From NCBI GenBank assembly GCA_022707705.1, contig JAKJAC010000013.1, positions 294 through 36,493 of the forward strand: DNA of 36,200 nucleotides. Direction: 5' to 3'. The translations under genes were made by a program, and so were the position numbers. This DNA comes from Chloroflexota bacterium (lineage in GTDB: Bacteria > Chloroflexota > Anaerolineae > B4-G1 > SLSP01). Below the pieces are notes generated by a model, which saw nothing but the letters and a program-made list of their open reading frames with translations, searched no databases and was not told the origin of the DNA. Of the stretch, positions 259-25,349 are shown piece after piece. Position 1 is the first letter of the stretch, and the number at the start of each line of letters is the position of its first letter.

Positions 259-450
259 TTCTCGATACAAAATCTAGAATAACAACAATGATTATACGAG
301 CATTATCCCTGGGGTCAAAGAAGATGGGGTTTATGACTGCTCGAAGTCCCATTGCAGGGGGCGAGTCATCGAGATCTTTCCGGTGCCCATCTAATGTGGT
401 TCTAACATTGTTCGACTAGAATACTGTAAAACACAATTGAGGTGAATATC

Positions 451-3027
451 ATGGACATGAATCGTTATACCGAAAAAACTCAAGAAGCACTGTTGAGAGC
501 GCAGGACCTTGCTGTTGAATATGGACACCCTCAAATTGAGCCCGAACACCTGCTATTGGCTCTTTTGGAACAACCTGAGGGGGTTGTTCCACAGGTGATT
601 CTGCGAATTGGTGGTGACCCGCAGCGTTTGAGCGGTGACTTGCGGCAGGCTTTGAGCCGTCGTCCTCAGGCTCGAGGCGGAACCTCTCAGGTGGGGCTTG
701 CCGCTGCAACCTCGCGGTTGTTGCAGGCCGCAGAACGTGAGGCGGAGGGGTTGCACGATGAATACGTTAGCACGGAGCATCTGCTTCTGGCGATGGCTGA
801 TGCGGGTGCGGGTGACATTTCACAGCTTCTGACAACATTTGGGGCTTCTCGCGATGCGGTACTGCGTGCCTTACAGGGGATTCGTGGCGGGCAGCGTATA
901 ACCTCACCAACGCCCGAAGGAACGTATGCGGCTCTCGAGCGCTATGGACGCGACCTGACGGTTTTGGCAGAGCAGGGCAAACTCGACCCGGTTATTGGAC
1001 GCGATGATGAAGTGCGCCGGGTGATGCAGATTCTTTCTCGTCGAACCAAAAACAACCCTGTGCTGGTTGGCGAGGCGGGTGTTGGCAAAACTGCCATTGT
1101 TGAGGGATTGGCGCAACGCATTGTGCGTGGCGATGTTCCTGAGAGCCTGAAAAACAAGCGCATTTTTCAATTGGATATGGGGGCGCTGATTGCAGGCGCG
1201 AAGTATCGTGGTGAGTTTGAGGAGCGTCTCAAAGCGGTGCTTAACGAATTGGCGCGTGCTGAAGGGCAGATTCTGCTCTTTATTGATGAGCTGCACACAG
1301 TTGTTGGTGCAGGTAAAGCCGAGGGGGCGATGGATGCCGGGAATATCCTTAAACCCATGCTGGCGCGGGGAGAGCTGCACACCATTGGCGCAACAACCCT
1401 GGATGAGTATCGCAAATATATCGAGAAGGACGCCGCGCTTGAGCGGCGCTTTCAACCGGTATATGTTGGCGAGCCGGGCGTAGAAGACACCGTCAGCATT
1501 CTGCGGGGACTCAAGGAGCGTTATGAGGCTCATCATGGCGTGCGTATTCAGGATCCGGCGCTGATTGCAGCGGCCTCTCTAAGCCGGCGCTACATTACCG
1601 ATCGGCAACTGCCTGATAAGGCGATTGATTTGGTGGATGAGGCTGCGGCCCGGCTGAAGATGGAGATTGACTCCAAACCAGAGGAGCTGGATGAGAGTGA
1701 CCGCCGCATCATGCAACTCGAAATCGAGCGTGAGGCACTGCGGAAGGAAAGCGATGGTGCCAGCAGGCAGCGGTTGGGCAAGTTGGAGCAGGAGTTGGCG
1801 GACTTACATGAGCATAATCGTGCATTGCGGGCACGTTGGGAACAGGAAAAGTCGTTGATCCAGCAGTTGCAGACGGCACAACAGGCGATGGAGGCGCTCA
1901 AGGTGGAGATCGAGCAAGCCGAGCGCGCTTTTGATTTGGAACGTGCTGCGCGATTGCGTTATGGGAAAGCTTCAGAACTGCAGAAGGCGCAGGAACTGGC
2001 TCAAGAGCGGCTGCGTCTGGCGCAGGGGGAGCATCCCTTGCTACGGTTGGAAGTCAGCCCAGAGGAGATTGCGCGCGTGGTTGCAGAGTGGACAGGTATT
2101 CCCGTGTCGCGATTGTTGGAGGGTGAGCGTGCTAAGTTGCTGCGCATGGAAGAAGGTTTGCATCAGCGTGTTATTGGACAAGCTGAGGCAGTTGCTGCAG
2201 TTTCGAATGCCGTGCGTCGTTCGCGTGCTGGGTTGCAGGATCCCAACCGCCCCATCGGTTCATTTTTGTTTCTGGGACCCACAGGGGTGGGTAAAACTGA
2301 ATTGGGGCGTGCCTTAGCGGAATTCCTCTTCGATACTGAGGATGCGCTCATTCGCATTGACATGAGCGAATATCAGGAGAAACATACGGTCTCGAGGTTG
2401 ATTGGCGCTCCTCCCGGTTATGTGGGTTATGAGGAAGGGGGACAGTTGACGGAATCCGTGCGCAGGAGACCATATAGTGTGTTGCTGCTGGATGAGATCG
2501 AGAAAGCGCATCCTGAGGTTTTCAATGTCTTGTTGCAGTTGCTTGATGATGGTCGCTTAACCGATGGTCATGGTCGCACGGTGGATTTCAAAAACACGAT
2601 CATCATTCTCACCAGCAATGTGGGTAGCCGTTGGATCAAGGATCTTGGGGTGGAGGCGGCGCGTTCTCAGGTGATGATGGAACTGGATCAAGCGTTTCGA
2701 CCCGAATTTCTGAACCGGATTGACGCCGTGATTCTCTTCCGCAATCTATCTCGCGATGATTTGGCGCAGATTGTGGATATTCAAATACGATATCTTCAGA
2801 CGTTGTTGGCTGAGCGTCACAACACGGTGACCTTGACCGATGCGGCGCGGAACTACCTTGCGGAGGCAGGCTACGACCCTGCCTATGGCGCGCGTCCGCT
2901 CAAGCGCGTCATTCAGCGTGAGCTGCAGGATCCGCTGGCGTTGGCAGTCTTGGAAGGACGCTTTGCCGAGGGAGCAGAAATTCGCGTGGATGTGCGCGAA
3001 GGAAAACTGACTTTTTTGACAGTTTGA
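451..3027 (+). CDS. clpB: ATP-dependent disaggregase ClpB
   Basis: Cytoplasmic AAA+ hexameric chaperone that, with DnaK in known systems, threads aggregated proteins through its pore. The product is 858 residues, the usual ClpB size. A Clp_N double repeat occupies about residues 1-150. The first AAA domain has Walker A GEAGVGKT at 207-214 and Walker B acidic pair D279-E280. A long charged coiled-coil middle domain spans about 400-520, which separates ClpB from ClpA/ClpX. The second AAA domain has Walker A GPTGVGKT at 609-616 and D681-E682 in [13 protein letters not shown] 451 is preferred because GAGG at 439-442 is correctly spaced, while the in-frame GTG at 442 overlaps that site. It is transcribed alone and ends at a strong hairpin. 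No promoter could be named with confidence, though the 225-258 palindrome lies upstream. Confidence 0.97.
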
Positions 3028-3417: not shown

Positions 3418-5697
3418 TCATTCCCGTGAGGTGATCTGGACACTTCCCAAGGGGACCAGTGCATTGGGGAAGGGTGTGCCATTCTCCTGCACCGGAATAC
3501 GGGTGCCATCGCTGACGCGGTATAGACCTGCCCACAAGGAATATTCGCCGGGGGGAAGCTCTGCTGGAATGCTCAAGGTGTGGATATCGGGAATCGTGTC
3601 ACCGGCTTGCCAAACCGTAGTCGGAAACCAACCATTGCGAGGTTCACTGTCGTGCTGCGCGTAAGCGGCGGTTTCTCCCGGTTGCCACAGATGCACAAAA
3701 GCGATGAGCTGCTCTCTGATGCGATCGTGTGCCTCCCAGTGCAGGGTGACGGTGAGTGTGCCGCCTGCCTGCACCATTGCATCGCGGTCATAGCCACGCA
3801 GGGTGATTGCGTTGTCGAACTGTGCAGTTAGTGGCGAGGTGGGAGCCAGGGCATGGGAAGTTTTTGCTGCCACAACCACTGAAGAAACTACGGGCGGTTC
3901 TATGGTGGTGCCATCAACCTGTGCTGGCAAGCGTTCACCAGTTGTGGCATCGAAGAGCCCTATCTCTAGCAGGGCGCGGAGTGGGGTATCAATATCAGCT
4001 GGCAGGGTCAGGCGGTATGCATCGCAGAAACCGCGATCTGTGGGCCATAGTGATGTGGGGAAACGCCCTAGACCTGGATAAGTGCGTCGTGAGCTGATAA
4101 TACTGTTCTCGGGACCAAGGAGCTGCACAAAAACGGTGTAATCGTGAGACATTGGGTGTGCAGCTTGCCAGCAGGCATTCACCACGAGGAGCTCACCAGG
4201 GGAAACGCGAGCCATGTTGCCCTTGATTGCTGCGCTCAGTAGGAGCGCTTCATCGTTGTAAAGTACCGAGGGGGTATTGCCTGAGATGGCGGTGGGTGAA
4301 ATCAATTTGGGAGGTGCAAACGTTGCCAGAATCCGCGCGCCGGGCGCCAATGTCGTCACTGCGACCAAGAGCAGCAGCAACGCTTGGTGTCGGCGCTGTG
4401 GTCGTTCTGTGCCGGACAGTCCCATTGCCAGCAGTCCCGCCCATGCACCGATGGCGGGGAAGAGCAGTCGCCCGTGAGGTGCTTCCACCTGACGCATCCA
4501 TTGTAGCAGCGCCGCGAAAATCCCCAGCACCCAAAAGGCGCAGAGTAGATAGATAATTCGCGCGGTTGGAGCAATATCGGTATCTGCGTTCGAGGATGGA
4601 GCGCGATGAAGCATGCGATAGACGCCTCGCGCTAAGGTACCTAAAGCAACGAATGTGAGCACCGCATAGACCCAATCGTGCCACCAGATGTGCCCCCAGC
4701 CATACGCTCCCCAAAAGGAACGGAGCAGCAGCGGCATTTCCGGCAAGAGAGAAAACAACGAGACCGGAGTGGGGCGCCCCCAGAGTGTTTGAGTGTGATT
4801 GGAGATGCCAAGTGGGTCACCGTAAAGAACCAGGTTTCTACCATACCACCAGGCGCCTGTGAGCAACGCTGTTAATCCGAAAGTTAGAACGGCTTGAAGA
4901 ACGTTTCTGTGACGCCGGAACCCGGTGTGTTCTGCAGGCGAAAGTTCTCTTGTCTGCTGCCAGCTTTTCCAGAGCAGGCACAAGCCCGCGAGCGGGAGCA
5001 GCAGTAGAGCGCTTGTTTTGGTTAGGGCAGCCAATCCAGCCAGGCACCCCGCCATAATGGCATTGCGCGGCGTCACACCACGGCGCAGGAATCGCGCCGT
5101 GGCCCATAGCCCGGCGGTGCAGAGAGCTGCAGCGGCGCTATCGTTGCTGACAACGCTGCTGATGAAGACAAATTGCGGATGGAAGGCAACCAGAGCTGCT
5201 GTGAGCAACGCTGAGCGCCGGTTGCCGAACAGCTCCATGCCCAATCCCCACGCGGCGACAACGGTTAACCAACCGAAGAACAACGAGGTGAGCCGTGTGA
5301 TTCGCACGGCGAGCACTGCGCCGCTGCCGGGAAAACGTTCCTGTTCTGTGTGGATGAGCATGTTCTTGTTGTCGGCTACGGTTCCCGGCGCTTGATAACC
5401 GAAGCCCGGGTTGTGCCAAAACAACGTCTGCAAAGTATCATCCGGGAAAGGGGCACTAATCAGTGCTGCGGTGGCATAATAGAGCGGTGGTTGTGCGACT
5501 TCTTGATTTGCGCCGCTGGTATCATCTGTCATGGAGGGCAAGCCATTTCCCTCGGCAAGCCAACGGACGTAGGCGTAATGCCAGACTTCGTCGGGCGCTT
5601 CAAAGAGTGGTGTTGCCTAGCTGTGGAGGCAAACCAACACGGTGAAGGCGCCGAGCAGAATAGTCAGTGGATGTAGTGCAGAGAAGAAACGTTTCAT
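3418..5697 (-). pseudogene. PMT-type (GT39-like) glycosyltransferase interrupted by an in-frame amber codon
   Basis: The natural start is ATG 5695-5697, overlapping the TAA of the upstream glycosyltransferase (TAATG). It encodes a signal-anchor-like helix (MKRFFSALHPLTILLGAFTV) and then meets TAG at codon 27 (complement of 5617-5619). The same frame continues for 732 codons. Directly after the TAG comes ATPLFEAPDEVWHYAYVRWL, carrying the D-E pair typical of the first periplasmic loop of phospholipid-carrier-dependent glycosyltransferases, then QPPLYY. The first ATG after the stop (5541) falls beyond the D-E pair, so re-initiation would lose essential residues. About ten membrane helices follow, then two C-terminal beta-rich repeats (pattern FVHL...PTTVWQAGD...GLY). 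TAG is a normal stop elsewhere in the window (secD, coaX), so this is a nonsense mutation or a sequencing error rather than a reassigned codon. Confidence 0.85.
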
Positions 5698-8462
5698 TAC
5701 GGCTCCACATGGATTGGAATGATAACAGCGTCTTCTGGCGACGTTATTGTCGTTCCACTTGTGACGGGTAGGCGACTGTCCGCGTTGTACAGACCAACCC
5801 GCAGGTGGTAATCCCCGGCAGGCAATCCTGCCAAAGGATGCGCATCGGCGATAATCTCGCCGGGTACCCAGGTATTGGTAGGCTTAACACCAAGCGCGGG
5901 CCAGCTATCGTGTTGTGCAATCAGTGTGCCAGGATTGTCAGGCGGCACAACGTGGACGAAGACGTTGTAGGGCGTTTCACCGGTTTCCCCTGCGCGCCAA
6001 TAGAGGGTGATGGTAAATGCTTCTTCTGCGCGAGGCTCCGACTGCAATTGATAACCTAAAAGGGTGGCGATATTGGCGCCGAAATCTCCATTGGCAGGCA
6101 GCAGGCCTGCTGGCGGGTCGAACTTGCGTCCGGCGTCAATATGGATTTCAGGTCCGCGCCATTGACCGAGCGCTGCGCCAGAGGGCGTAAGGAGTGTTAT
6201 GGTCAATGGCATTCTACTATCCAGTGCACGGCACGCGATGGAAACCCGGAACTGTGTGGCGAAACGTGTTCCTGCGAGCAGGGGGACGGTGCTGGGGGGG
6301 GCCATAACAGGGAGCGCTGCTGTGTGATCATTTAGCGCAAATCTCAACTCATGCCTCTCTCCTGATGCGATGGTAAGTCTGCTTTCCCAGAATGCCCAAC
6401 CTTCGATTGTATCGCAGGGAAAAACCGTATTTCTAGCTAACCATACCCCGAGCAATTGTAGTAGTGCAGGTTGTTCGCTTGCATTCACCTGCTCAACGGA
6501 GCTGATGTTTGTGGGCAAGGCGGGCGGCGATTCAGATGGCAGCAAGGTGACCGGTTTCAAGATCACTGTGGCAGTAGCCCCCTCTGCAATAGCCACAGTG
6601 AGGGTTGGCGTATAGATACCGGGGGGCGTCCAGGGATCAGGTATCAGTGGATAGCGCCCCAGAACTGGTATTCCTGCGCGCCATCGTGAGGGGCGATAAT
6701 CGCCACTGCCAGGTGTGCCATTGTACCGCCCCCATTCATCCCCGCGTGCGTCGAGCAGACGTAGGGTTACTTGATAGAAGCGATCGTCGTGAGCATCCGG
6801 ATTCTCTGTCATCCAGAATGTCCAGATATCCAGCGCACTTCCGGCTGTTTGGTGGGTTTCAGGAAGCCGGTACCCCCACAGGAATAAGCCAGGTAATGTG
6901 GGGATTTTCGGTTGGGTAGTCAGCTGTGGGGTGGAGGGGAACTCAGGACGGCGTTCAAGCGCAAACAGGCGCAGTCCCAGACCGTGAAATTGTGGCGTCG
7001 GGAGCTCTGTGCCGATATCATCCAGCAATGCTGGAATAATGCCGGTAGGATCAGTGATGTGGTCCAACCAGGTGACAAGCCAGACGCGTTGCGCTTTCTG
7101 AAGACGCAGATTGAGTTCTGGGGTGCTATTCGTGTAGTCGAGTATGTTATTTACATCGAGTAGTTCGTCATCCGGTAATGGTAGCAGGTTCCCAAAGCCG
7201 GCATAGTATGCCCAGGCAGGAAAAACAGAACCGGTCTCCACGATGACGACATCATCGGTTGCACGCTGTTCAGTGATATAGTGGGCAACGCCGCGCCAAT
7301 CCTCGGTGGCATAAGTTGGATTGGCAAGAAGATTGATGTTAGTGGGCACGGAAATCGCGACGAGAACCAGGCTGCACAATCCCATGCCTGCGCGGGTAAG
7401 CACGCGAGCAGAGCGGTTGTGAATTCGGGCTGTCAAACCCCAGCTTATCGCCAACGCTAGAGCTGGCAGCGGTGCGAATGACGATGCATGACGACTGCCC
7501 CATTTGGGCAGATTGCGGAAAACGAAGGCGACAACTCCGAGCGGTAGGAGTTGCAATAATGGATAGAGTCCTGCATAAGGACGATGGCGAGCGATGAGGA
7601 GCGTGGGAAGTGCCACGAGAAGGATCAACCCTCCGGTAGTCATTCCCCATTCTGCCGGTAGATAATTGGTCCCCGTCATCCCGGCAATAGAGATGCGCAG
7701 AAACTCCGCAACCGGAAGATAGCCTTCCCAATATGTAGCATTCGTACCCAGCGACGGCAATGCGCCAATTAGCCATGGTATAAAGAGCAGACCGGCAATG
7801 GCGGCAGGTGGGATCATGATACGAATCCATGAGCGTGTGGTTGACCACGGCTTGCGAGCTAAAACGACCACGGCGAAGAGCACCTGTCCTATTAGCCAAA
7901 ATGCAGAAAGAGTCAGGTTCGCGATGGCGCCCAGTACGGCGCCGCCCCACAACCAGGCATAGCGGCGGCGGGTGTGAGGATTACCTGCAAACAGGGTCTC
8001 TATCAATGCCGTGCCGGCAACCAGGCACCAGGCAATGAAGGCTCCGTACATGCGGGTTTCGCGCGAAGCCCAAATCAGTGGGGTAGCAGTCGCACCGAGG
8101 AATAGCGCCCAGGTTGCAGCGGACCGATTGCCCGTTAGCCGGCGAGCAAGTCGCGCCATAGCTGCAAGCGCGATTAAGCCGTATAGCACTGAAGGAAAAC
8201 GCAGTGCAAATTCACTGGTCCCCGCGAGCGGAATCCAGGCCCGCAGGAGGAAGTAGTGCATGGGTGGGACGAGCTCACCCATGCTGAGCTCAATCATTTT
8301 GCTGAAAGGCAACTGTGTGGTGCTCCACCACAGGTAAGCCTCGTCGTACCACAAGCTCCGCGCGCCGAGGTTCCATGTACGCAAAACAAATCCAGCCAAA
8401 AGCAGAAGTAGCGCTACATGGCGTTGTCCAACCCCTCGTTTCACGGTTGTTCCAGAATTCAT
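5697..8462 (-). CDS. PMT-type (GT39-like) integral membrane glycosyltransferase with long C-terminal beta extension
   Basis: The product is 921 residues. The N-terminal half (about 10-390) is a multi-pass membrane region with the D40-E41 pair in SLWYDEAYLWW, matching the first-loop acidic motif of PMT/ArnT-type enzymes that move sugars from polyprenyl-phosphate onto exported acceptors. Residues about 500-921 are non-membrane, beta-rich and periplasmic by inference, ending in the recurring pattern YNVFVHV...PTNTWVPGE...LRVGLY seen in its neighbours. The start is uncertain: ATG 8462 lacks a clear ribosome binding site, and an in-frame GTG six codons later has a GGA upstream. The gene is coupled to the following glycosyltransferase by a TAATG overlap. 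Donor and acceptor cannot be read from sequence. Confidence 0.85.
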   Translation of the reverse strand: MNSGTTVKRGVGQRHVALLLLLAGFVLRTWNLGARSLWYDEAYLWWSTTQLPFSKMIELSMGELVPPMHYFLLRAWIPLAGTSEFALRFPSVLYGLIALAAMARLARRLTGNRSAATWALFLGATATPLIWASRETRMYGAFIAWCLVAGTALIETLFAGNPHTRRRYAWLWGGAVLGAIANLTLSAFWLIGQVLFAVVVLARKPWSTTRSWIRIMIPPAAIAGLLFIPWLIGALPSLGTNATYWEGYLPVAEFLRISIAGMTGTNYLPAEWGMTTGGLILLVALPTLLIARHRPYAGLYPLLQLLPLGVVAFVFRNLPKWGSRHASSFAPLPALALAISWGLTARIHNRSARVLTRAGMGLCSLVLVAISVPTNINLLANPTYATEDWRGVAHYITEQRATDDVVIVETGSVFPAWAYYAGFGNLLPLPDDELLDVNNILDYTNSTPELNLRLQKAQRVWLVTWLDHITDPTGIIPALLDDIGTELPTPQFHGLGLRLFALERRPEFPSTPQLTTQPKIPTLPGLFLWGYRLPETHQTAGSALDIWTFWMTENPDAHDDRFYQVTLRLLDARGDEWGRYNGTPGSGDYRPSRWRAGIPVLGRYPLIPDPWTPPGIYTPTLTVAIAEGATATVILKPVTLLPSESPPALPTNISSVEQVNASEQPALLQLLGVWLARNTVFPCDTIEGWAFWESRLTIASGERHELRFALNDHTAALPVMAPPSTVPLLAGTRFATQFRVSIACRALDSRMPLTITLLTPSGAALGQWRGPEIHIDAGRKFDPPAGLLPANGDFGANIATLLGYQLQSEPRAEEAFTITLYWRAGETGETPYNVFVHVVPPDNPGTLIAQHDSWPALGVKPTNTWVPGEIIADAHPLAGLPAGDYHLRVGLYNADSRLPVTSGTTITSPEDAVIIPIHVEP

Positions 8463-8576: not shown

Positions 8577-9659
8577 CTACGGTTTCGTGACTTCGATAGG
8601 GCCGAATCCCTCTGTCATGCATGCGTCGGGACCGGGGCGGCGCGAAAGTACCTTGACGATGATTTTGTCGCCTGTCTGCAGGGCTTGCATCCCTGGGATA
8701 TTCACGCTATGTGCGGTTGTAGGATTCGTGTCCAGGGGGGTAACCTGCCACTGTTCAGAAGTTGCCACGAAGGGAATGTACACGGTTCCAGTTGTCGGTA
8801 GCGTCGTGGTGATTGGATTCGTAGCAGGTGCAATCTGGTACCACACTTGTGTCGAGGCGGGTGCGACAGTGTTCCAATAGATCATAAGTGTGTCGCCGCT
8901 GATATAGGTGCTTACCTGGTCACCCGAACCCCAATAAGTGGGTTCTGGCAGTCTGCCATTGGGGAATGGAATTCGCTGTAGAATGCCACTATCCCACCAG
9001 GTATCATACCATGGTGCTTGTGCGCCGGTATAGATGGGATTGGCGTAAGTGATTGCAGTTAGTTTGGTGCTCAGCGGTTCAGCGGTTGTGACCAATCTAT
9101 CCCAGGCAAACAGCGCTGTTTGTGTGGCAGACCAGGTGGTCAACGGCGGCATTTGTCCACCGATGAGGTCATTGTGGACATGGTCCAGGGTAATCTGTGT
9201 GCCTCGTGGGTCAAGTCCGATGCGCGCATTGGGTGCGGTGCCCGTGTTGCCACGGCTGTAGACAGCCATGGAGAACTCATAGGGCACGCAAGGTGTGAGG
9301 TTCTCGACGACCTGATAGACTCCTGCCTGGTAGTTGCTACCCTGTTTGAAGTGGACTTGTGCGTGAGACCCGCTGAGAGGGGGCCAGCGCGGCGAAGTGG
9401 GTCTCATATCATCGTATTGCGGAATCAGCGGTTGAGATGGCCAACCGTTCACCCACCAGCGGTACCAATGTGGCGCCAGATAGTAATCGGGTGGGTACCA
9501 GATGAAGCCGCGTGTTTGAGGGTCCTCTTCTTCAAAGTCGCCATTGACGAGCACATTGCCATCATTGGCTTGAACCGCAAGATAGGACTGAGGTGGAAGC
9601 AGCAACAGACTGCAAAGTAGCACAAAGCCCCAAATGAGTCTCAAACGTGATGTTATCAT
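8577..9659 (-). CDS. Secreted protein with carbohydrate-binding-like N-terminal domain
   Basis: The product is 360 residues from ATG 9657-9659. This start places a classical signal peptide at the N-terminus (MITSRLRLIWGFVLLCSLLL, probable cleavage after AVQA near residue 31); the frame stays open 38 codons upstream but that extension is polar and unlikely. The mature protein begins DGNVLVNGDFEEED, the N-V-L-x-N-G-D-F-E pattern that opens many CBM4/9-like beta-sandwich domains. Tryptophan- and tyrosine-rich segments follow, and no protease or glycosidase motif is visible. It lies between glycosyltransferase genes on the same strand, with 114 nt and 175 nt gaps, so it could be an acceptor or a surface partner of that system. 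That role is inference. Confidence 0.7.
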   Translation of the reverse strand: MITSRLRLIWGFVLLCSLLLLPPQSYLAVQANDGNVLVNGDFEEEDPQTRGFIWYPPDYYLAPHWYRWWVNGWPSQPLIPQYDDMRPTSPRWPPLSGSHAQVHFKQGSNYQAGVYQVVENLTPCVPYEFSMAVYSRGNTGTAPNARIGLDPRGTQITLDHVHNDLIGGQMPPLTTWSATQTALFAWDRLVTTAEPLSTKLTAITYANPIYTGAQAPWYDTWWDSGILQRIPFPNGRLPEPTYWGSGDQVSTYISGDTLMIYWNTVAPASTQVWYQIAPATNPITTTLPTTGTVYIPFVATSEQWQVTPLDTNPTTAHSVNIPGMQALQTGDKIIVKVLSRRPGPDACMTEGFGPIEVTKP

Positions 9660-9834
9660 AGGTCTTCTCTCTTTTCCGATAGAATTAGTTGGTGTTTGAA
9701 CGCCTAGAGTGGTGTTGTTAGCTCTTTTCTGACGGATAGTGTTGTTTTGCACTCCAGGAGATGATTCTACCATATTTCGAAGTTGTTCAGTGCTCTCCCG
9801 CTCCCCATAGCGGTTACCAGATTTCTCTATCGTT

Positions 9835-12030
9835 TCATGGCGACAAGATTACGAAGGCATCATCAGGCTGCCGTTCTGTCCCCAGGAAAAGCTCCAGCCG
9901 TGCGCCGGTCTGCGGGTGATATAACCCCACAGCGATACTGGCAGGCGCCCGATCTGTTTCTAGAGTGTGAATGTCCAGAATGCGGTCTCCGGGTTGCCAC
10001 AGCCGGGTTGGGAAGGCTTGTGCCATGGGTGGACCATCGCCGGTCCCCAGGAGTGCACCATCTGCGTCGTAGGCATGCACAAAGACCGTATAGTCACCGT
10101 CTACGGCCTTCAGACTTTCCCAACAGAGATGTACTTCCCACCCACTCGGTCCTGGTTCGACACCGGCGTGTGTGAGCGCGATGGCTTCATTAAAATGCGC
10201 GGGTGTTTCCAGTAAGGGGAACGCGTCGCATGTGGTTTGATTCCCCGGAATCCGAAAGATATTCAGTGCTGCCGCATCACCTGATGGTTGCCCCTCAACA
10301 GTGACCGGTAATCTGGCACCGGTTTTTTCATCATAGAAAGCAACTTGTAGCTTCCAGGCCTGTGTGGGAAGGCTGCTTTCAGGCAGTGGCAATAGCAGAT
10401 GCTCGCGGAGCAGATTCCCTGTGGGAAAGGCTGAGGTGGGAAGATTCCCATGCCCGAGCCAGGCATCATACGTGAGGCGGAGGGTATTGTCGCCAGGACG
10501 CGCGGAGACGAGTTGCACTGCTAAGCCCCAATCCTCGCTGAGCGGGTGTGATGCTTCAAAGTCCAGTGTGAGATCAAGGGCGGAGCGGCAGTAGCTGCTT
10601 TGTGCCAACCAGCATGCCAGGCGGGGCTTGACCAGCCGACCTTCGTAGCTGTGCAGCGTGATGTCATCTGCACCGAAAACGATATTGGCGGTGTTGGTGG
10701 TGAGTGGTGTCGTACTCAAGCGCAGAGGCGGTGTAAAAAGGGGCGCCACACCAAAAAGCAGTACCAAGAGTGCTCCAAGCGGCAACAACCCGCTCCAGGC
10801 TCGCGCCAGGTTTCTGTGAAGCTGTTGCCACCCAATAGCTAGCAACACTGCTAGAGCTGGCGCAGCAGGGAAGAGCAGCCGTCCACCAGTCGCTGGTGTG
10901 AGTGCGTTCCAGCGAATCCATGCAATGACGATGATGGCAAACCATCCGCCCAGAATGAGCAGACTTGCCCGTTCTGGCGAGTAGCGACGCGGGCGCAGCA
11001 GCAGCCCTAGAAATCCGCCACTTAACAGGATGAAGAAATGCCAGTAAAGCGCGCGGGGATAGAAGGCGCAGGGCAACTGTCCCCAGTACGAACGGAGCAT
11101 CAATTGAAAGGTGCCCCAGAAATCCACATGCGTGGTGGTGGACCCCACGATTTCGAGCATGGGAGCAAGCGCTGTGGGGTCACCGTAGAGTTGCCAGTTT
11201 CGTATCAGCCACGGCGCAACCAAAAGCAGCGCTGGTATCCCAAGGAGCAATCCCCAGACCAACACCTGCTTAAACGGTGCTCGCCTTTGCCAGGTATAAA
11301 CCAAGAGTGTGATTCCGGCGAGCCCCAATAAACCGATGCCACTGAGCTTGCTCAATGCTGCAAGTCCTGTGAGGACGCTGAAGCCCAGGAGTCGCGCTGG
11401 GGTGGGGCCGCGCTTCCAGATATCCAGGAGCAGCACCAGCGCCCAGGTTGCCAAAGGGGTGACCAGGTTGTCGTTGTTCACGCCAGCAGCAATGAGGAGA
11501 AATTGGGGATTGAAGGCGACAATAGCGGAGGCAAGCAGCGCCAGATAGCCCCGTGGGGTAACACGACGCGCCAGCGCCCAGGTTCCGATAACCGTAGCAC
11601 ATTGAAGCAGGGTGGAGAGCAATCGCAAGTAGTGCGTCGTGCGCCGGTGACCTTGCCAGGGGAATTCAAGATAAGGGTCGCGGCTCCAGGTGACGCGGTT
11701 GTAGCTTGTATCGCCGGAACCGCAGGCGACGAAGGTCTCGGGGATTGGTTTTGCTGTTGGGGCTTCCAGGGGTAGGTCCCATAATCGCACCCACGCTGCA
11801 CTCAGGAGGTGATAGAGAGGTGGTTGCGAAGCTTCCTGCCGGACATGAAATCCGGCAACTTCTGCTTCTCCGTGGATGGGGAGTCGCCCGGTAATGGCGA
11901 TGTGGCGGATGACTTCGGTATGTTCCAGCTCATCAAGGTTTTCGTAAGCAGGAACGCTGCTATTCCAGGCGAGCGCCAGACTGAAAAAGGCCATCAGGAG
12001 TAGCAATAGACCGATATGTGTTTTGTTCAT
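9835..12030 (-). CDS. PMT-type (GT39-like) integral membrane glycosyltransferase
   Basis: The product is 731 residues. The N-terminal helix is followed by D33-E34 in ENLDELEHTEV and by QPPLYHLLSAAW, the same layout as the amber-interrupted paralogue at 3418-5697. About ten further membrane helices run to about residue 430. The C-terminal 270 residues hold two copies of the beta-rich repeat (LPTSAFPTGN...VAFYDEKTGARLPV and DYTVFVHAYD...PTRLWQPGDRILDIHTL). Its ATG overlaps the stop of the upstream hydrolase gene (ATGA), so translation is probably coupled. Likely role: transfer of a lipid-linked sugar to an envelope polymer or protein on the outer face of the membrane; the substrate is unknown. 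Confidence 0.87.
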   Translation of the reverse strand: MNKTHIGLLLLLMAFFSLALAWNSSVPAYENLDELEHTEVIRHIAITGRLPIHGEAEVAGFHVRQEASQPPLYHLLSAAWVRLWDLPLEAPTAKPIPETFVACGSGDTSYNRVTWSRDPYLEFPWQGHRRTTHYLRLLSTLLQCATVIGTWALARRVTPRGYLALLASAIVAFNPQFLLIAAGVNNDNLVTPLATWALVLLLDIWKRGPTPARLLGFSVLTGLAALSKLSGIGLLGLAGITLLVYTWQRRAPFKQVLVWGLLLGIPALLLVAPWLIRNWQLYGDPTALAPMLEIVGSTTTHVDFWGTFQLMLRSYWGQLPCAFYPRALYWHFFILLSGGFLGLLLRPRRYSPERASLLILGGWFAIIVIAWIRWNALTPATGGRLLFPAAPALAVLLAIGWQQLHRNLARAWSGLLPLGALLVLLFGVAPLFTPPLRLSTTPLTTNTANIVFGADDITLHSYEGRLVKPRLACWLAQSSYCRSALDLTLDFEASHPLSEDWGLAVQLVSARPGDNTLRLTYDAWLGHGNLPTSAFPTGNLLREHLLLPLPESSLPTQAWKLQVAFYDEKTGARLPVTVEGQPSGDAAALNIFRIPGNQTTCDAFPLLETPAHFNEAIALTHAGVEPGPSGWEVHLCWESLKAVDGDYTVFVHAYDADGALLGTGDGPPMAQAFPTRLWQPGDRILDIHTLETDRAPASIAVGLYHPQTGARLELFLGTERQPDDAFVILSP

Positions 12031-20026: not shown

Positions 20027-20863
20027 CTAGTTGCCTTGGGCCTGTTTGGTTTCCTTGAGGGCGTTCTCTATTTGAGCCATGTATGCAAGAGCTGTCTCTT
20101 TCTTACTATTCAACAGGGCGTCTTTGAGAGTTGCCACAATCAACAGCGAAACTGAGAAGCTGCTTATGTCGAGTGGGCTGTGTCCAGGAGTGGTGATTAC
20201 CGTCTCTGCCTCGCGTGCGGCAAGTGTAGTGCCATTATCGGTAATGCAAACGGTCGGAATGCCTTTGGCGCCGACCAGTTTGACGGCGTGTCCGGTGTCA
20301 ATTCCTGGCGTACCGAAGACCAGCGCCAGCAGTACATCGCCGGGTTGCATCGTGTTCACGGATTGGGCAGTTTCTGCCATACCAGGCGTGAAATGGAAAA
20401 TCGGGATATCGAGCGGCGCCAGACTCTCTGCCAGATATTGTGCAATGTTGTAACTTGGGAATTCTCCGACAACCCAGATGCGCTGGGCAGATTTGAGCGT
20501 CTTCAATGCTTGTGCCAGGTGCGGAGCCTCGGTGGTCGCAAATTGCTCCAGGTCCTGTGATTTGCTGGCGAAGAGAGCGTGCACCAGGTCTTCCTCATTG
20601 CCTGCTTCAACGGCTTTGCGATATGTTTGTACGATTTCCCCCCGCACATGCGCTTTGATTTCTCGAGAGAGTTCTCGGAAACCACTGTAACCGATTTCCT
20701 GTGAGAATCTCACTACTGTAGCAGGATCAATACCCACACGACGAGAGAGCTCGGTCGCCGTCAGAAATGCAACATCCAAAGTCTGGTTCAGAATGAAATC
20801 TGCCAGACGGCGAAATCCAGGGGTAAGATTGCCGTAATGCTCTTCAATTCTTTCCCGAAACAT
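20027..20863 (-). CDS. RpiR/MurR-family transcriptional regulator, paralogue 1
   Basis: The product is 278 residues. The N-terminal HTH_6 domain (about 1-77) is well conserved: LTPGFRRLADFIL, TATELSRRVGIDPATVVRFS and GYSGFRELSREIK. A SIS-fold domain (about 120-260) follows; in family members it senses sugar phosphates. Here the usual S-x-S-G phosphate-binding loop is replaced by LVFGTPGIDTGH, so the ligand may differ. AGGAG upstream fixes ATG 20863. It is the last of three tandem paralogues on this strand and converges on the VWA gene. Confidence 0.9.
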   Translation of the reverse strand: MFRERIEEHYGNLTPGFRRLADFILNQTLDVAFLTATELSRRVGIDPATVVRFSQEIGYSGFRELSREIKAHVRGEIVQTYRKAVEAGNEEDLVHALFASKSQDLEQFATTEAPHLAQALKTLKSAQRIWVVGEFPSYNIAQYLAESLAPLDIPIFHFTPGMAETAQSVNTMQPGDVLLALVFGTPGIDTGHAVKLVGAKGIPTVCITDNGTTLAAREAETVITTPGHSPLDISSFSVSLLIVATLKDALLNSKKETALAYMAQIENALKETKQAQGN

Positions 20864-20888
20864 GTCAATCTCCTTTTTTCCGTGTAAT

Positions 20889-20901
20889 GTTGCTGCAATG
20901 T
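20889..20901. repeat. 13-nt repeat, copy 2 (upstream of rpiR copy 1)
   Basis: An exact copy of GTTGCTGCAATGT, with the palindromic core TTGCTGCAA, lies 26 nt ahead of ATG 20863 on the minus strand. This is where an operator of that gene would be expected. Confidence 0.45.
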
Positions 20902-20919
20902 ATAGCTGGATGAAAGAAA

Positions 20920-21795
20920 CTATTCTTTTATTTGTGGTAAGGTTGCTTCATAGGCGGCAGTCTGTGCTCTCATGGCAAGGATTTCACTCAAGTACTCATT
21001 GTAGGCAGTGAAGGCCTCCGCAGTTTGGGAAGCATTGGCACCAGCCAGGGCTTCCCAAATTAATGCAATGATGGCAATGGCTGCACCACTGTTAGGAATT
21101 CCGGTGTTATCAAGTGTTGGTACCACGACGACGAGTTGGGCTTCTCTGGCCGAGGTGTACAGGTTGTTGTCGGTGAGTGTGATAGTCTGAGCGCCTTTTT
21201 CGTGCGCCATGCGCACCACATAGCCCGTATCGAAACTGGGTTGGGTGATTGCCAGGGTGACCAGTGTGTGTCCTGGTTGCATCTTGCTTAACGTGGTCGT
21301 GGCACTTAATGCATCCGGTGAAAAGGCTTCAGCCCGGATACCGGCGACCTGCAACATGCGTGCCAGGAATTGGGCGATGGCTAAAACTGGACCCTCGCTG
21401 GTAATCCATACCTGAGGAGTTTGTTTGAGTATTCGTAACGCCTCACCTAACTTTGGGGTCTCTGTCATGCTGAAATCTGTCAGGTTCTGACGAGTGTTAT
21501 CCACCAATTGGTGGATAAGGGCTTCCTCGCTTTCAGCTTCTGCTCCTTTGCGATAGGTGGTCGTCACCTGGTCACGTACGTAGTGCTTGATTTCGCGTGA
21601 GAGCTCTCTATAGCCGCTGTAGCCGATCTCCTGTGCAAATCGAACAACCGTGGCGGGGTCTACGCTGACGCGACGGGAAATCTCGGTCACCGTCAGAAAT
21701 GCTGCATCCAGGGTATGATTCATAATGAAGTCAGCAAGTTTGCGAAATCCTGGTGTAAGGCTGTCATAATATTGACGAATTTGATCTTGAAACAT
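20920..21795 (-). CDS. RpiR/MurR-family transcriptional regulator, paralogue 2
   Basis: The product is 291 residues from ATG 21793-21795. The frame is open to 21825, but the later ATG has AGGAG nine bases upstream and aligns with its sisters (MFQDQIRQYYDSLTPGFRKL). The HTH_6 domain is intact (TVTEISRRVSVDPATVVRFAQ). In the SIS-like domain the phosphosugar loop reads LAITQPSFDTGY instead of S-x-S-G. It shares the DPATVVRF and GYSGYRELSREIK blocks with both neighbours. The 80-nt gap to the preceding paralogue shows no clear promoter, so co-transcription is likely. Confidence 0.9.
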   Translation of the reverse strand: MFQDQIRQYYDSLTPGFRKLADFIMNHTLDAAFLTVTEISRRVSVDPATVVRFAQEIGYSGYRELSREIKHYVRDQVTTTYRKGAEAESEEALIHQLVDNTRQNLTDFSMTETPKLGEALRILKQTPQVWITSEGPVLAIAQFLARMLQVAGIRAEAFSPDALSATTTLSKMQPGHTLVTLAITQPSFDTGYVVRMAHEKGAQTITLTDNNLYTSAREAQLVVVVPTLDNTGIPNSGAAIAIIALIWEALAGANASQTAEAFTAYNEYLSEILAMRAQTAAYEATLPQIKE

Positions 21796-21875
21796 AAGTT
21801 GAGTCTCCTTTGGTTGGATGGTCATCTACACGGCAGGCATTTCCTGGGTCTTTGCACAATTTGCTACAGGATATT

Positions 21876-22790
21876 CTAAAGGGCGGCGGGGAAATCAGGA
21901 TCAGCCCATCGCAATTGTTGGGACCAAAGAGCGATAGACTCATTGGTCCGTCCGCCAGTCTGCTGGCGTAATTCCATTAAACGGCTAAGGTGCAGGCGTT
22001 GTTCTTCCTGGTTTTGTTCTATGCTTTGCGGACGCTGCTCTCCGAGGCTTTTCTCGATGAGTGACAGTAACACCGCAATCAGCGCCAGACCTGTGAAGGG
22101 TGATGTCGTCTGACCGATGATCAGCGCGAGTTTGGCTTCTTTAGCTGCCGATTGGAGTCCATTGCTGCTTATGCAGAGCGTGTGCACGCCTTTTTCTCGA
22201 GCTAATTGCAGTATATATCCAACATCAATCTGTGGTCCTTCATTTCCTAAAGCTAGCAGCGCATCTCCATTTTGCATGTGACTCAAGCGCATCGCAGCTT
22301 CCAGAATATCAGGATGAAAAGCGACGGCGGACTGATCCATGTTTCTCAAGCCTTGTGCGAAAGCCTGCGCCAAGCCATTCAGTGCGCCTTCTGCCACAAT
22401 CCAGATTGTTGGGGCTTCATTGAGCACCGCACAGATTTCCCCTAGGCGTTCCAGATCAACCATAGTCAGGTGTTGTAGCTGCTGATGGAATTCCTCCAAC
22501 GATGCGGTGAAGTGTTCTCCTTGTGTGGTAAAGGGTACGTCCGGCGTCTTGCCTATCGTGATTCGATCATGAACATACCGTTTGATCTCTTGAGACAATT
22601 CGCGATAGCCAGAGTATCCCAGGTCTTGCGCAAAGCGAACTACTGTCGCTGGATCTACCTCTACTCTACGCGCCAATTCAGTTGCCGTGAGGAAAGCTGC
22701 ATCGAGCGTGCAGTTGATGAGGAAATCCGCTAATCTCCGGTGGCCCGGTGAGAGCCGTTCGTAGCTGTCTCGGATACGTTCTCGGAACAT
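21876..22790 (-). CDS. RpiR/MurR-family transcriptional regulator, paralogue 3 (first in the operon)
   Basis: The product is 304 residues. HTH_6 covers about 1-77 (LSPGHRRLADFLI, TATELARRVEVDPATVVRFAQ, GYSGYRELSQEIK). The SIS-like domain has LGNEGPQIDVGY where the S-x-S-G loop is expected. The C-terminus is about 20 residues longer than in paralogue 1. ATG 22790 aligns with its sisters, and a weak AGGT lies upstream. It is first in the leftward triplet, with a good promoter and a perfect palindrome in front, so it probably governs expression of all three. Confidence 0.9.
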   Translation of the reverse strand: MFRERIRDSYERLSPGHRRLADFLINCTLDAAFLTATELARRVEVDPATVVRFAQDLGYSGYRELSQEIKRYVHDRITIGKTPDVPFTTQGEHFTASLEEFHQQLQHLTMVDLERLGEICAVLNEAPTIWIVAEGALNGLAQAFAQGLRNMDQSAVAFHPDILEAAMRLSHMQNGDALLALGNEGPQIDVGYILQLAREKGVHTLCISSNGLQSAAKEAKLALIIGQTTSPFTGLALIAVLLSLIEKSLGEQRPQSIEQNQEEQRLHLSRLMELRQQTGGRTNESIALWSQQLRWADPDFPAAL

Positions 22791-22943: not shown

Positions 22944-22971
22944 TTGATTATTGTTGGATGTGGGCTACAAT
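22944..22971 (+). promoter_or_regulatory. Promoter of the lipoprotein gene
   Basis: TTGATT (22944-22949) and TACAAT (22966-22971) are separated by 16 nt, 48 nt ahead of ATG 23020. Confidence 0.55.
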
Positions 22972-23019
22972 TCCGAAATTCCTGGGTCAGATAATGACAC
23001 ACTGGTGAGGGTATGTCGG

Positions 23020-23559
23020 ATGCCTAGAATGTGGCGATTCATCGGTTGGGGTTGTTTGTTACTTATCTTGGCGGCGTGTGGGCGCGAGCGTGTGCCGGTC
23101 ACAGCGACACCTAAGGCGTCGGTGGTTCTATCGCAATGGGCGCTTGAAGCTGAGGCGAGCTCCAGCTATGCTGTTCCCGATTGGGGACCAGCTCGCGCAA
23201 CGGGAGAACCGGATGTGCAAGCGTGTGCTGATGATCCTCGAGCTTGGGCCTCGGCACGGGGCAACGGGCTGGAGTGGTTGCAATTGCGTTATGTGGAGCC
23301 GGTTTATGCCACGGAAGTTCGCATTTTTCAGACTCTGGGACCAGGCACTATTGCGCGCGTGCACCTGATTGATTCAGGCGGTGGTCAAAAGTTGGTGTGG
23401 GAAGGGACGGATACATCTACAATTTGTCCGGGGGTGTTTACAGCATCATTCCCGCGAACCGAATATCTGGTCACCGGTGTGCGTATTGAACTGGACGAGT
23501 CACGCACCGGTTTCTGGAATCAAATTGATGCGGTCTCATTGGTTGGCATATTACCATAG
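23020..23559 (+). CDS. Lipoprotein with galactose-binding/discoidin-like domain
   Basis: The product is 179 residues. ATG 23020 has GTGAGGG eight bases upstream; a longer open frame from 22951 overlaps the promoter and is rejected. The signal peptide ends in lipobox LAAC with Cys20. The mature part has DWGPARATGEPDVQACADDP, WASARGNGLEWLQLRY and VEPVYATEVRIFQT, the A-T-G-x-P-D plus W-x-x-L-x-Y-x-x-P-V-Y-x-T-E-x-R-I pattern of discoidin-like beta-sandwich domains found in bacterial surface proteins. It is membrane-anchored and outward-facing by inference. It is divergent from the RpiR triplet, so the regulators could control it. It ends 4 nt from the convergent DprA-like gene. Confidence 0.8.
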   Translation: MPRMWRFIGWGCLLLILAACGRERVPVTATPKASVVLSQWALEAEASSSYAVPDWGPARATGEPDVQACADDPRAWASARGNGLEWLQLRYVEPVYATEVRIFQTLGPGTIARVHLIDSGGGQKLVWEGTDTSTICPGVFTASFPRTEYLVTGVRIELDESRTGFWNQIDAVSLVGILP

Positions 23560-24975: not shown

Positions 24976-25349
24976 CTATCTCCCTAAGGCGACCACTGAA
25001 GCGATTGCCAATCCCCCATCGTGCGTCAGGCTGATTGCCCACTCACTCAAATGTTGGGATTGCGCAAGCGATTGGGCATAGCCGTTAAGTGTAATGGTAG
25101 GGCGTCCACTGGGCGTGCTGAGGATTTCGACTTCATGCCAACGTATCCCAACGGGCGAGAGCAGCCTCAATCCCACACCTAATGTCTTGGCTACCGCCTC
25201 TTTTGCTGCGCCGCCACTTCTGAGGGTCGCCGGTGAAGCTTCAGGAGCTCCTGCGGCGTGAAGATGCGCTCCAGAAAACGTTCGCCATGTTGAGCGAGCG
25301 CCCGCTCTATCCGCGCTATTTCGATGACGTCAATGCCGGTTGCCAGCAT
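24976..25349 (-). pseudogene. acpS: Holo-[acyl-carrier-protein] synthase, frameshifted
   Basis: AcpS moves 4'-phosphopantetheine from CoA onto acyl carrier protein. From ATG 25347-25349 the frame reads [20 protein letters not shown] (metal ligand D7) through [20 protein letters not shown], then hits TAG at 25191-25193. The rest is in another frame: [15 protein letters not shown] (with the second catalytic Glu), WHEVEILSTPSGRPTITLNG and WAISLTHDGGLAIASVVALG, ending at 24976. Adding one base around 25205-25213 joins the halves to SEVAAAAKEAV, giving a near-normal length. It lies 20 nt after the M16 gene and 3 nt before dtd in a tight operon. It is either a recent mutation or a sequencing/assembly error; as an essential enzyme in most bacteria, an error or a second copy elsewhere is likely. 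Confidence 0.88.

Follow-up and report, generated by a model that had tools for sequence, protein, structure and literature searches.

An in-frame TAG interrupts an otherwise open glycosyltransferase frame (called GT1 here) in a draft Chloroflexota genome, which raises the question whether the codon is decoded, marks a lost gene or is an error of the assembly. We analysed the whole stretch of 36,200 nucleotides around it (called the window) and compared it with related genomes. Our reading, to which we assign a probability of roughly 90%, is that GT1 carries an isolated nonsense base and that, until very recently, it encoded an ordinary glycosyltransferase under selection. A tryptophan codon, TGG, reads TAG in one assembly, and a decoding mechanism is neither needed nor supported.

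A membrane glycosyltransferase frame with one internal stop codon

The features of the locus are the following:
3418-5697, minus strand: GT1, frame of a PMT_2-type membrane glycosyltransferase, 759 codons before the terminal stop, interrupted by one TAG (translation, Pfam and orthologs)
5617-5619, minus strand: the TAG, codon 27 of GT1, TGG (Trp) in 4/4 congeners (ortholog codon table)
5587-5592, minus strand: D-E pair, codons 36-37 of GT1, inside the invariant P-D-E-V-W-H block in the first loop past helix 1
5697-8462, minus strand: GT2, intact paralog upstream of GT1, whose TAA overlaps the GT1 ATG (TAATG)
9835-12030, minus strand: GT3, a further intact paralog of the cluster, 80% identical to the copy in the sister genome

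Translation of the minus strand reproduced the layout proposed in an earlier sequence-only reading of this DNA: GT1 opens with the ATG at 5697 and runs for 26 codons to the TAG at 5619-5617, beyond which 732 codons stay open up to a TGA. Across the whole frame (3418-5697) exactly one internal stop and no second lesion were found. That reading had also called the product a glycosyltransferase, which the Pfam matches bear out, as both PMT_2 (PF13231; 43.9 bits, cut-off 26.1) and PMT (PF02366; 35.7 bits, cut-off 22.7) exceed their cut-offs; DUF2142 was rejected as the family of GT1 at 20 bits, below the Pfam cut-off of 30.1. A search of solved structures with the GT1 family profile gave no match. 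The P-D-E-V-W-H block with its D-E pair shows no variation across 11 aligned orthologs. In GT-C enzymes generally, acidic residues of the first loop, which follows helix 1, have a catalytic role, and the D-E pair of GT1 is a putative catalytic element. As already noted from the letters, neither ATG nor GTG lies in frame between the TAG and this pair; TTG is absent there as well, and the earliest possible starts past the TAG, TTG 5541 (codon 53) and ATG 5532 (codon 56), both lie beyond the pair. The GT1 region was found in a single place in the assembly, with no second copy or strain variant.

GT3 is weakly similar to the GT1 copies of relatives and has no Pfam match. The window is collinear with a contig of the sister genome (G002:C172) except for clpB (442-3027). 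This gene, on the plus strand, adjoins the glycosyltransferase cluster here and at L010 and L012, and is absent from that place in the sister contig. Elsewhere in the window, 20027-22790 on the minus strand holds three tandem, mutually similar ORFs of 278-304 aa that by eye resemble RpiR-type regulators. Promoter-like and terminator-like sites in the GT1 region were no commoner than in shuffled sequences.

Codon 27 encodes tryptophan in the congeners

Uninterrupted GT1 orthologs are present in 4/4 congeneric genomes (70-78% protein identity, shared gene order, no other stop), and such conservation of the remaining codons in four congeners means that the open frame of GT1 is not due to chance. 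All four carry TGG (Trp) at codon 27, within the block LHGWATPLFEAPDEVWHYAYVR, and the more distant orthologs carry Trp, Ala, Leu, Val, Phe, Ser and other residues at this position but never a stop. The stop at codon 27 is confined to one draft assembly. Given TGG and no other stop in all four congeners, a single G-to-A substitution on the coding strand is the minimal event. The sequence-only reading had called for this comparison with close relatives, which quickly settles the former identity of codon 27. It had also named relatives with a shorter protein starting past the TAG as evidence against its view; all congeners have the longer protein. Apparent stops in two neighbouring genes at L010 lie upstream of likely start codons and were discarded.

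GT1 evolves like its intact neighbours

Against the nearest congener, dN/dS (NG86) was 0.149 for GT1 as compared to 0.130 for GT2, 0.125 for GT3 and 0.121 for the gene at 8577-9773. Among changes private to this genome, the ratio of amino-acid to synonymous ones was 35:42 in GT1, compared with 99:133 for GT2, GT3 and the 8577-9773 gene together (Fisher p=0.69). Because the substitution pattern is like that of intact neighbours and a second lesion is missing, any real mutation in GT1 must be recent. A long-standing pseudogene was rejected on these grounds, with a single lesion and no sign of relaxed selection. If the base is real, translation would end after a 26-residue peptide containing most of the first membrane helix, and functional GT1 would not be made.

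Other conserved genes in the assembly are broken

The assembly is a draft of 4.8 Mb in 456 contigs and 77.6% complete. A second gene in the window also reads as interrupted:
24979-25349, minus strand: acpS (holo-ACP synthase), in two pieces owing to a 7-bp deletion near 25209 (in tblastn the sister protein matches in two frames, and the aligned DNA shows a gap of 7 bp)

The intact sister copy matches the NCBIfam acpS model. In this genome PF01648 matches the two fragments and nothing else, and the genomes G001, G002 and G003 have one unsplit match each. Of all the breaks this one carries the most weight: a cell that loses its only holo-ACP synthase is not expected to survive, although a second one could lie in the missing 22% of the genome. 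An assembly whose one acpS gene looks disrupted should not serve to infer gene loss.

Approximately 290 gene pairs from stretches of this genome and of the sister genome G002 were compared in both directions, the base rates thus referring to sampled stretches. Broken here and intact in the sister genome were an HdrA-like gene (L145, about 9150, plus strand; 8-bp deletion between flanks that are each 97% identical), a BMP-type lipoprotein gene (L142, about 5920, minus strand; +1 in a G run) and a TtuA/NcsA-like gene (L152, about 4360, plus strand; -1 frame break). One further conserved gene here is broken with an offset of -56, like acpS and the three just named without an N run; seven further broken genes coincide with N runs, and a few other frame breaks near gene ends are less clear. 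Among the compared pairs, G002 had no internal frameshift with at least 85% identity on both sides except one at residue 29, which probably lies upstream of the true start.

Convincing in-frame stops were equally rare in both genomes, with 1 here and 1-2 in G002 per roughly 105,000-109,000 aligned codons. The one found here, in 288 genes compared, is the TAG of GT1; those of G002 are a TAG at a Trp codon (L176:5998-6000) and perhaps one TAT-to-TAG change. Many other listed stops fall within the first ~30 residues, where a wrongly placed start codon is the best explanation. Among the matches listed for ABC-transporter domains, taken as a base rate in six genomes, none contained a stop. Scanning coding potential de novo for interrupted genes proved too weak and was abandoned: the scan did not pick up the TAG of GT1, and the three candidates it ranked highest, in L116, ran antisense to real genes.

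Spurious pseudogenes arising from low-coverage assembly are documented (PMC11017572). We give about even odds to the GT1 TAG being an assembly error or a minority variant in a rough draft, and somewhat less than even odds to a real, recent null allele of the strain. The breaks in other conserved genes of this assembly tip the balance slightly towards the former. Against it, the frame breaks in this genome are mostly indels whereas the lesion in GT1 is a base change, and in-frame stops are as rare here as in G002. The likely answer therefore lies within the options listed in the sequence-only reading, namely recent pseudogenisation or a base error; of the others on that list, phase variation does not fit a base substitution and readthrough found no positive support.

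UAG serves as an ordinary stop codon

In the window, TAG terminates secD, coaX and the lipoprotein-like ORF at 22951-23559, as had been pointed out before, and also the gene at 8577-9773. Among reciprocal-best ORF pairs it terminates 69/186 ORFs here and 54/186 in G002, fractions that are approximate because antisense ORFs are probably included among the pairs. RF1 is intact (prfA, 500.9 bits, open frame without internal stop), PylS is absent (no TIGR02367 match in this genome), and the 40 tRNAs found in the 77.6% complete assembly include Trp-CCA and none with a CUA anticodon. The 117 nt downstream of the TAG fold no better than shuffled sequences (z -0.59), and for the RNA stretch across the codon folding is a little better than the average (z -1.66). 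Reporters in E. coli put average TAG readthrough at <1% of wild type (PMC11126739).

Functional readthrough, by which a near-cognate or suppressor tRNA would read UAG usefully and full-length GT1 would be made, is unlikely given these data. The missing signs of decay, the many residues tolerated at codon 27 in relatives and the further TAG that replaces a Trp codon elsewhere in the sister genome, in a gene unrelated to GT1, would agree with it; however, a recent origin accounts equally well for the missing decay, the stop is conserved in no relative, RF1 is intact, no CUA tRNA is among the 40, the downstream RNA is not unusually structured and the reporter rates are low. Programmed readthrough was rejected since the stop is not kept in orthologs, four congeners having TGG and all other orthologs read having sense codons.

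The TAG in the sister genome (G002, L176:5998-6000, plus strand) stands opposite TGG in the present genome, in an unrelated conserved ORF of 224 aa with flanks 96% and 92% identical. The third congener, G003, has no TAG at this position. The two TGG-to-TAG cases, one per genome, gave the only hint of anything further. As they lie in unrelated genes, are each private and occur where TAG otherwise terminates genes normally, chance is enough to account for them. Weak, unrecognised amber suppression by which the genus tolerates UAG at former Trp codons, with both genes still expressed at a low level, is highly improbable by comparison.

Equally little speaks for re-initiation at TTG 5541 or ATG 5532 yielding a shorter working enzyme. 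A GAGG-like stretch is located ~8 nt upstream of TTG 5541, but the product would be devoid of helix 1 and of the block invariant in 11 orthologs, and the protein is longer in all congeners. Still less probable is phase-variation-like switching of GT1: surface-glycan genes are common targets of phase variation, but here a base was substituted rather than a repeat length changed or a segment inverted, and no homopolymer or tandem repeat is present at the codon. The TAG completes an inverted repeat at 5613-5632 (minus strand; 6-bp arms, 8-nt loop), as a templated mutation would; this evidence is weak because 6/170 Trp codons of the window would give a similar inverted repeat if mutated to TAG. 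Reassignment of UAG to an amino acid in the lineage, to which an in-frame UAG in a conserved frame could point, is practically negated by routine termination at TAG in both genomes, the single convincing in-frame TAG in 288 genes compared, the intact RF1, the absence of PylS and the lack of a CUA tRNA among the 40 found, findings that sustain the case made against it from stop usage in the sequence-only reading.

Comparison with known systems

To us the GT1 stop looks like either a commonplace mutation of recent date or an error in the assembly, and not like a new reading of the code; its significance is little. If the stop is real and fixed, it would mean that one member of the cluster of three membrane glycosyltransferases was lost recently.

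GT1 resembles PMT_2 and PMT-type glycosyltransferases in passing both cut-offs and in the acidic pair in the first loop past helix 1, and differs from them in the internal stop, seen in one genome, and in a long extension at the C-terminus that the Pfam match does not cover. With systems of UAG recoding (pyrrolysine, suppressor tRNA, amber-reassigned codes) it shares an in-frame UAG within an otherwise open frame; unlike in those systems, RF1 is kept, PylS is absent, no CUA tRNA is among the 40 found, TAG is an ordinary stop and the codon is unconserved in relatives. In contrast to the spurious pseudogenes of drafts (Cooley and Wright 2024, PMC11017572), the base in GT1 was read from the assembly consensus and nonsense changes in this genome show no clear excess. 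GT1 is like these spurious pseudogenes in having one internal stop in a conserved frame, private to an assembly in which conserved genes are frameshifted.
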